A stretch of DNA of 64,000 nt, taken from Burkholderiales bacterium. Its GTDB lineage: Bacteria > Pseudomonadota > Gammaproteobacteria > Burkholderiales > SG8-41. The stretch spans positions 62,001 to 126,000 of the forward strand of contig JAHCAG010000003.1 in NCBI GenBank assembly GCA_019635015.1, written 5' to 3'. The notes under the pieces were generated by a model. The model saw only the letters and a program-made list of their open reading frames with translations. It made no database searches and had not been told where the DNA came from. Made by a program: the position numbers and the translations under genes. Of the stretch, positions 12,962-14,752 are shown one piece after another. Position 1 is the stretch's first letter. Each line of letters opens with the position of its first letter.

Positions 12962-14031
<1,070 letters not shown>

Positions 14032-14037
14032 CCCGAT

Positions 14038-14160
14038 TATAGCCGTCTGATATTGCAGACGGCTTTGGCTGTCTCCCGCTTCTCCTCCCTGAGCGGGTGC
14101 CTTAATTCTAGTTAAGGCTCTTCGCCCCCGGTTTACTCCCCTTATAACCGGGGGCTTTTT
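14038..14160 (+). ncRNA. Probable small RNA with four hairpins and anti-Shine-Dalgarno loops
   Basis: On the plus strand, four perfect hairpins follow one another: 14041-14064 (9 bp, loop ATATTG), 14075-14097 (6 bp, loop TCTCCTCCCTG), 14099-14118 (7 bp) and 14124-14155 (10 bp, loop TACTCCCCTTAT), the last followed by TTTTT. The order is that of a roughly 120-nt transcript ending in an intrinsic terminator. The flanking genes hemB and engB are both on the minus strand, so no annotated plus-strand mRNA needs this terminator. Loop 2 carries CTCCTCCC, which includes the CCTCC anti-Shine-Dalgarno core, and loop 4 is also C-rich. The U-tract overlaps the engB stop codon. From memory, a toxic small RNA with this kind of loop has been described from betaproteobacteria, but I cannot confirm family membership here. 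Confidence 0.75.
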
Positions 14161-14752
14161 ATTTTCTCAGCCAGCGGGTGATGACCGCCTGGGCTTCACG
14201 CACGCCGGTCTTGTCGGTGCCGGAAAAAATCTGCACGGTCGCTTCCCCCGGATGGCGGGCAAGCTCGAGTCGGGTCTGCTTCAGCATGGCCTCCGCATCC
14301 CGCCGGTTCAGCTTGTCGGACTTGGTCAACAGCACATGCACGGGTTTGTTGCTGGGCGCCAGCCACGCCAGCATCTGCCGGTCGAGTTCAGTCAGTCCAC
14401 GCCGTATGTCAACAATAATTATCAATAAAATCAATGAGTTACGATTAGAGATGTAAGTGCCAATTAACTCATCCCAGCGTTCCTGTTCGGGGCGCGGCAC
14501 TTTGGCATAACCGTAGCCGGGCAAATCCACCAGCGAGCAGTGGTTGCCCATGTCGAAAAAATTGATGGCCTGGGTGCGCCCCGGCGTTTTGCTGACGAAG
14601 GCCAGTTTTTTACGGTTGGCCAGGGCATTGATGGCGGTCGACTTGCCGGAGTTGGAACGGCCGGCGAACGCCACCTCGGCGCCCTGATCGGGCGGCATGT
14701 CGCCGAGCTGGTGGACGGCGTAACGGAATTCGAGTTGCGAAAACAGGGACAC
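14159..14752 (-). CDS. engB: Ribosome biogenesis GTP-binding protein EngB/YihA
   Basis: EngB is an essential TRAFAC GTPase that helps assemble the large ribosomal subunit. The P-loop GRSNSGKST is at residues 31-39. The G3 motif is DLPGYGYAKV and the G4 motif is TKSDK. It is 197 residues with a GTG start at 14750-14752. Around residues 99-115 the segment NSLILLIIIVDIRRG is encoded by strikingly AT-rich codons unlike the rest of the gene, and the usual Gly after SLx is Leu. Length relative to the family is unchanged there, so the patch is a substitution and not an insertion. Confidence 0.95.
   Translation of the reverse strand: MSLFSQLEFRYAVHQLGDMPPDQGAEVAFAGRSNSGKSTAINALANRKKLAFVSKTPGRTQAINFFDMGNHCSLVDLPGYGYAKVPRPEQERWDELIGTYISNRNSLILLIIIVDIRRGLTELDRQMLAWLAPSNKPVHVLLTKSDKLNRRDAEAMLKQTRLELARHPGEATVQIFSGTDKTGVREAQAVITRWLRK
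14411..14440 (-). repeat. AT-rich motif copy inside engB
   Basis: Read on the minus strand, TTGATTTTATTGATAATT matches the intergenic sequence at 34717-34734 in 17 of 18 positions. It lies inside coding sequence of otherwise high GC. Confidence 0.4.

Follow-up and report, generated by a model that had tools for sequence, protein, structure and literature searches.

A new member of the anti-hemB small RNA family between hemB and engB

The feature between hemB and engB in the window (the whole 64-kb stretch of Burkholderiales DNA that was analysed) is a new member of an already catalogued small RNA (sRNA) family, anti-hemB or ncS04, and comparison of more than 100 relatives at the sequence level suggests that the envelope-stress sigma factor turns this RNA on. 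The covariance-model search proposed in the original prediction was run against Rfam 15 and identified RF02837 (anti-hemB) at 14072-14162 on the plus strand, with 77 bits against a gathering cut-off of 49.5 and with model positions 1-81 of 81 aligned. This was the sole above-threshold Rfam match within the window, and a genome search showed that the RNA is single-copy in the source genome. RF02837 was matched in 299 of the 399 sampled genomes of the order (above the cut-off in 245), and the RNA of the window, as expected of the family, adjoins hemB on the opposite strand. By this match and the conservation of the locus, the original prediction was right to propose an independently transcribed sRNA conserved between hemB and engB, the transcript itself being a predicted one here, and right also that the repeats lie on the strand opposite both neighbours (Table 1). 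The RNA is directed away from hemB, and its predicted start lies about 85 nt upstream of the hemB start codon. In Nitrosospira briensis (L076, 666-906), two tandem anti-hemB copies were observed, with a sigma-E promoter on the first copy only.

Transcript evidence for anti-hemB comes from B. cenocepacia only (PMC5688073), and the RNA has also been predicted in B. pseudomallei (PMC3521395). In B. cenocepacia J2315, ncS04 is a 105-nt RNA detected by Northern blot, its start having been mapped by dRNA-seq and its 3' end by RACE; Hfq binding is mentioned in the same paper with Ramos et al. 2013 as the cited source (PMC5688073). The open literature searched yielded no functional study of anti-hemB/ncS04, and a search combining hemB, engB and sRNA returned nothing. 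The RNA of the window resembles ncS04 in its full-length match, locus, strand, CCCGC hairpin, third hairpin, terminator and predicted length, which at about 105 nt would equal that measured for ncS04. It differs in its promoter, which is of the sigma-E type, in its covarying 5' hairpin and in the C-rich loop of its terminator, whereas the Burkholderia loci have a sigma-70-like extended -10 element, carry the 5' hairpin in only 2 of 11 cases and lack the C-rich terminator loop.

Table 1. Features of the hemB-engB region (positions are those of the window)
Feature	Position	Strand	Remarks
hemB (porphobilinogen synthase), divergent neighbour	12962..13972	-	NCBIfam NF006762, 510.8 bits
-35 element GGAACTA of sigma-E (ECF, RpoE-type) promoter	14023..14029	+	conserved motif at fixed distance
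-10 element TCTGA	14046..14050	+	16 nt past -35
Predicted transcription start	14057 (about 14055-14058)	+	6-7 nt past -10; would give ~105-nt RNA
5' hairpin AGACGGC-TTTG-GCTGTCT	14057..14074	+	compensatory changes at 7/7 pairs (51 sequences)
Anti-Shine-Dalgarno hairpin CCCGC-(TTCTCCTCCCTGA)-GCGGG	14075..14097	+	stem invariant in 51/51; within RF02837 match
Loop 2, CU-rich, TTCTCCTCCCTGA, putative mRNA-pairing site	14080..14092	+	alignment columns nearly invariant
Third hairpin GCCTTAAT-TCTA-GTTAAGGC	14099..14118	+	folded; 4/7 pairs changed on both sides
Rho-independent terminator hairpin	14124..14155	+	10-bp stem; 5/7 scored main-helix pairs covary
C-rich loop of the terminator, TACTCCCCTTAT, perhaps a second site of pairing	14134..14145	+	
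U-tract (T5), RNA 3' end	14156..14160	+	sequence; overlaps last engB codon
engB/yihA/ysxC (ribosome-biogenesis GTPase), tail-to-tail neighbour	14159..14752	-	NCBIfam TIGR03598, 223.5 bits

The stems covary and mark the plus strand as the RNA strand

Folding of 14056-14163 gave a free energy of -50.5 kcal/mol (z -6.83), far below that of dinucleotide shuffles. The compensatory changes in the stems that the original prediction had named as supporting evidence were found on aligning 51 diverse sequences: 18 stem pairs change on both sides, a number matched by none of 500 shuffles, and by every measure of conservation and covariation the observed value was reached by 0 of 500 shuffles. The pairs of the named structure were counted because RNAalifold omitted the third hairpin, probably as a result of misaligned gaps. 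G-U combinations outnumbered A-C combinations in the stems (65 vs 26), indicating that the plus strand is the RNA strand.

Four hairpins are present, as originally described, and the inverted repeats exist, but the first hairpin had been misplaced. It was taken to be a 9-bp repeat, AGCCGTCTG-ATATTG-CAGACGGCT, at 14041-14064 on the plus strand, which overlaps the promoter's -10 box. A stem across this box is kept in only 15 of the 66 relatives with a sigma-E-type promoter (8% in shuffles), but 60 of these 66 have a hairpin immediately next to CCCGC, like that at 14057-14074. We therefore regard the latter as the first hairpin of the RNA, and the repeat over the -10 box very probably lies outside the transcript. 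The 5' hairpin is outside the Rfam model, yet covaries across lineages. The complementarity of loop 2 (TTCTCCTCCCTGA) and the terminator loop (TACTCCCCTTAT) to the Shine-Dalgarno sequence was confirmed, as was the run of five T residues after the last stem. The expected conservation of the C-rich loops held for loop 2, but the C-rich terminator loop is missing from Burkholderia and Comamonadaceae.

Apparently as a result of its derivation from Burkholderia, the RF02837 model begins downstream (3') of the covarying hairpin and has no C-rich loop in the terminator; it would gain from a wider seed. The Comamonadaceae seem to have a rewired form of the RNA: at their loci (e.g. L032, L040, L052), a GTGTGACAGC element is conserved within the third hairpin, and the promoter resembles the sigma-70 type.

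A sigma-E-type promoter is conserved upstream of the RNA

The promoter had been placed at the first hairpin; a sigma-70 promoter scan of the window found none, and sigma-E-type boxes were found instead at 14023-14050. In the relatives, the consensus GGAACTT-N15-17-TCTNA lies at a fixed distance upstream of the core hairpin, and the window departs from it in the final base of the -35 element (A vs T). Among 89 non-redundant loci, from which the Burkholderia and Comamonadaceae promoter types were left out, 66 matched at least 9 of the 11 consensus positions, compared with 3.2% in shuffles. The strict pattern [GT]GAACT[TA]-N15-17-TC[TA] was present at 43 of the 89 loci, in about 0.2% of shuffles and in none of the reverse complements. 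The 250 nt upstream of rpoE served as a positive control: of 28 genomes, 18 had the strict pattern there, and this shared motif (L160, L194-L222) is probably the autoregulatory promoter of rpoE. The source genome encodes RpoE (326 bits), with TGAACTT-N16-TCA 150 nt upstream of its gene, and genomes of the same genus retain the GGGAACTA/GGGAACTAT boxes plus TCTGA at the anti-hemB locus. The position of the TCTGA element is the reason for expecting transcription to start near 14057.

Burkholderia, Paraburkholderia and Pandoraea have a GGTATAT(C/G)AT extended -10 element in place of the sigma-E boxes. In B. ambifaria, a start 7 nt past this element would give exactly 105 nt, equal to the length of ncS04. 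The Comamonadaceae promoters mostly have TTGAAA/TAAATT-like boxes of the sigma-70 type. The sigma-70-type promoter in Burkholderia explains how a link to sigma-E could be missed there.

Candidate targets of loop 2

In each genome, loop 2 perfectly matched 9-nt sites beside an ATG at about 0-8 genes, which fits a limited target set better than the broad translational repression originally envisaged, a claim left unsupported by so few sites; pairing through short stretches of 5-6 nt of the Shine-Dalgarno sequence, and hence wider repression, may nevertheless occur. In the source genome, complements of loop 2 with at most one mismatch lie at plausible ribosome binding sites of about ten genes, mostly with envelope functions, in a comparison that was not matched for genes with strong Shine-Dalgarno sequences. 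They include four TctC receptors (one expanded family), an OmpA-family lipoprotein, a PpiD-like periplasmic chaperone and IspA/YciB; among the rest are genes for a TauD-type enzyme and for a sulfatase. A porin of family PF13609 was not found in the source genome, which is incomplete. Ribosome binding sites of porins from the same genus, a set that includes a few wrong starts, gave a mean of -11.3 kcal/mol with loop 2 vs -7.4 for the start regions of 34 open reading frames of the window, a crude control, and these values are no more than suggestive of a weak complementarity between porin ribosome binding sites and loop 2.

Homologues in Gammaproteobacteria occupy the polA-engB locus

RF02837 was also matched beyond the order, in 89 of 185 sampled genomes of the class at E <= 0.001, ten of them above the cut-off. 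In a set of 20 loci outside the order, polA was detected in 11 and engB in 14; polA was upstream and on the same strand, and engB downstream and tail-to-tail, in nearly all of these, and a single locus (L294) was the exception in both arrangements. A sigma-E-type promoter was present at 18 of the 20 loci (1.2% in shuffles), and a model made from the betaproteobacterial alignment alone recovered all 20. The same model had no match in Pseudomonas ErsA (L295) or E. coli spf.

ErsA lies between polA and engB in Pseudomonas (PMC8575079), depends on sigma-22, and represses the porin gene oprD and algC through Hfq (PMC7565897, PMC8575079, PMC8395346). When whole genomes were searched independently with the ErsA model, 8 of the 185 class genomes gave matches, all eight adjoining polA and/or engB and five coinciding with RF02837 positions. 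At one locus (L296, G571:C33, 1089-1844), four copies lie in tandem between polA and engB, scoring 36-42 bits with the anti-hemB model, 37 with the ErsA model and, for one copy, 48.3 with the sX13 model. At the genuine ErsA locus L295 (121 bits), TGAACTT-N17-TCATA is found upstream. The RNA of the window is greatly diverged from ErsA of Pseudomonas aeruginosa (RF01719, Pseudomon-1) in sequence, scoring 12 bits (E 7.7) against a cut-off of 50, and is preceded by hemB where ErsA is preceded by polA. The two RNAs are nevertheless alike in their engB-linked locus, in a promoter of the sigma-E/sigma-22 type (the conserved GGAACTA-N16-TCTGA motif in the window), in CU-rich unpaired regions and in a terminator with a C-rich loop; moreover, intermediate loci match both models, and the gammaproteobacterial homologues have polA on the side where the window has hemB. 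Such parallels, drawn from sequence comparison, suggest a distant kinship between anti-hemB and ErsA, the stress RNA of Pseudomonas.

Xanthomonas sX13 is encoded downstream of polA and, through C-rich loops, represses mRNAs bearing G-rich motifs near the start codon without Hfq (PMC3771888). The RNA of the window shares with this Xanthomonadaceae RNA stable stems, C-rich loops and, by way of its homologues, a locus adjoining polA, but it scores 29.4 bits against the RF02232 cut-off of 50, and sX13 is Hfq-independent with no sigma-E control described in PMC3771888. The alphaproteobacterial ar14 model gave 27.5 bits against a cut-off of 58.8.

The E. coli Spot 42 gene (spf) lies between polA and yihA (= engB) and is placed and oriented with respect to yihA as the RNA of the window is. 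Spot 42 differs in being repressed by CRP and acting in carbon metabolism. Neither the window with RF00021 nor the spf region with RF02837 or the betaproteobacterial-alignment model gave a match; homology in sequence is thus not supported by the covariance models, and the parallel is a positional one. Spot 42 may represent one more RNA at the polA-engB locus, in rewired form.

We lean towards the reading that anti-hemB, ErsA and sX13 descend from a single ancient sRNA of Beta- and Gammaproteobacteria that lay tail-to-tail with engB, was ancestrally transcribed by sigma-E and targeted envelope mRNAs through CU-rich anti-Shine-Dalgarno loops, with Burkholderia and Comamonadaceae changing later to sigma-70 and hemB replacing polA in Betaproteobacteria. 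Rfam families that now carry three names, and of which each is known from a single lineage, would then be one old RNA, in which a change of promoter control can be traced while the pairing loop stays fixed.

Proposed function and alternative explanations

Taken with its likeness to ErsA and sX13, these results make it probable that the anti-hemB sRNA is raised by RpoE from the sigma-E promoter at 14023-14050 and represses a limited number of mRNAs, mainly those of envelope and exported proteins, filling in Betaproteobacteria the place that ErsA has at the engB locus of Pseudomonas; for the source organism, we infer the activation, the targets and the repression alike. The RNA would be transcribed on the plus strand from the RpoE promoter to the terminator at about 14160, and envelope stress would raise its level through RpoE. 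The invariant CU-rich loop UUCUCCUCCCUGA, probably aided by Hfq, would then pair with purine-rich Shine-Dalgarno regions, the C-rich terminator loop may serve as an additional pairing site in the lineage of the window, and pairing would block translation of the limited mRNA set. For an RNA present in three quarters of the sampled Burkholderiales genomes, the sigma-E promoter and the locus shared with ErsA provide a first specific and testable hypothesis of function, that of an envelope-stress sRNA. The open literature searched contained no paper linking anti-hemB to sigma-E or to the ErsA/sX13 locus, and as far as that literature shows, the sigma-E promoter, the 5' hairpin missing from the model and the link to the ErsA/sX13 locus are new here.

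The levels of ncS04 in B. cenocepacia were constant over seven conditions, including the stresses tested (PMC5688073), and, together with the sigma-70-like promoters of Burkholderia and Comamonadaceae, would agree with a constitutive housekeeping sRNA involved in tuning central metabolism, with an ECF sigma factor other than RpoE, or a house sigma factor, acting at the GGAACTT motif. We consider this unlikely, given that the motif matches that upstream of rpoE in the same order and is held at a fixed distance in most lineages, including Gammaproteobacteria. It is far less probable still that the RNA is a cis-acting element, either an attenuator or antisense regulator of hemB or the terminator of engB; the position between the two genes and the family name would fit, but transcription runs away from hemB, the G-U bias and the terminator U-tract are both on the plus strand, and Gammaproteobacteria carry the same RNA beside polA instead of hemB.

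The original prediction had also named a growth-inhibiting betaproteobacterial sRNA as a possible relative, and we think it improbable that the RNA acts in the manner of that toxic family (RF02278) by titrating ribosome binding sites generally. Its two CU-rich loops are complementary to the Shine-Dalgarno sequence and so resemble the loops of RF02278, which mirror ribosome binding sites, and there is weak similarity to RF02278 at the same place. However, membership is rejected by a score of 21.2 bits against a cut-off of 50, compared with 77 bits for RF02837; the toxic RNAs are short, compact double hairpins of about 57-67 nt (ncS27 processed form) at other loci, whereas the window has four hairpins in ~105 nt; a locus elsewhere in the genome is more RF02278-like, at a still sub-threshold 35.3 bits; and perfect target sites are few. 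Another RNA considered as the growth-inhibiting one, ncS35, is a different sRNA with other neighbours. The 35.3-bit locus of the source genome (L002, G000:C7:17362-17428; cut-off 50) is a sub-threshold relative of the toxic double-hairpin sRNA with a CCTCCTCC loop.
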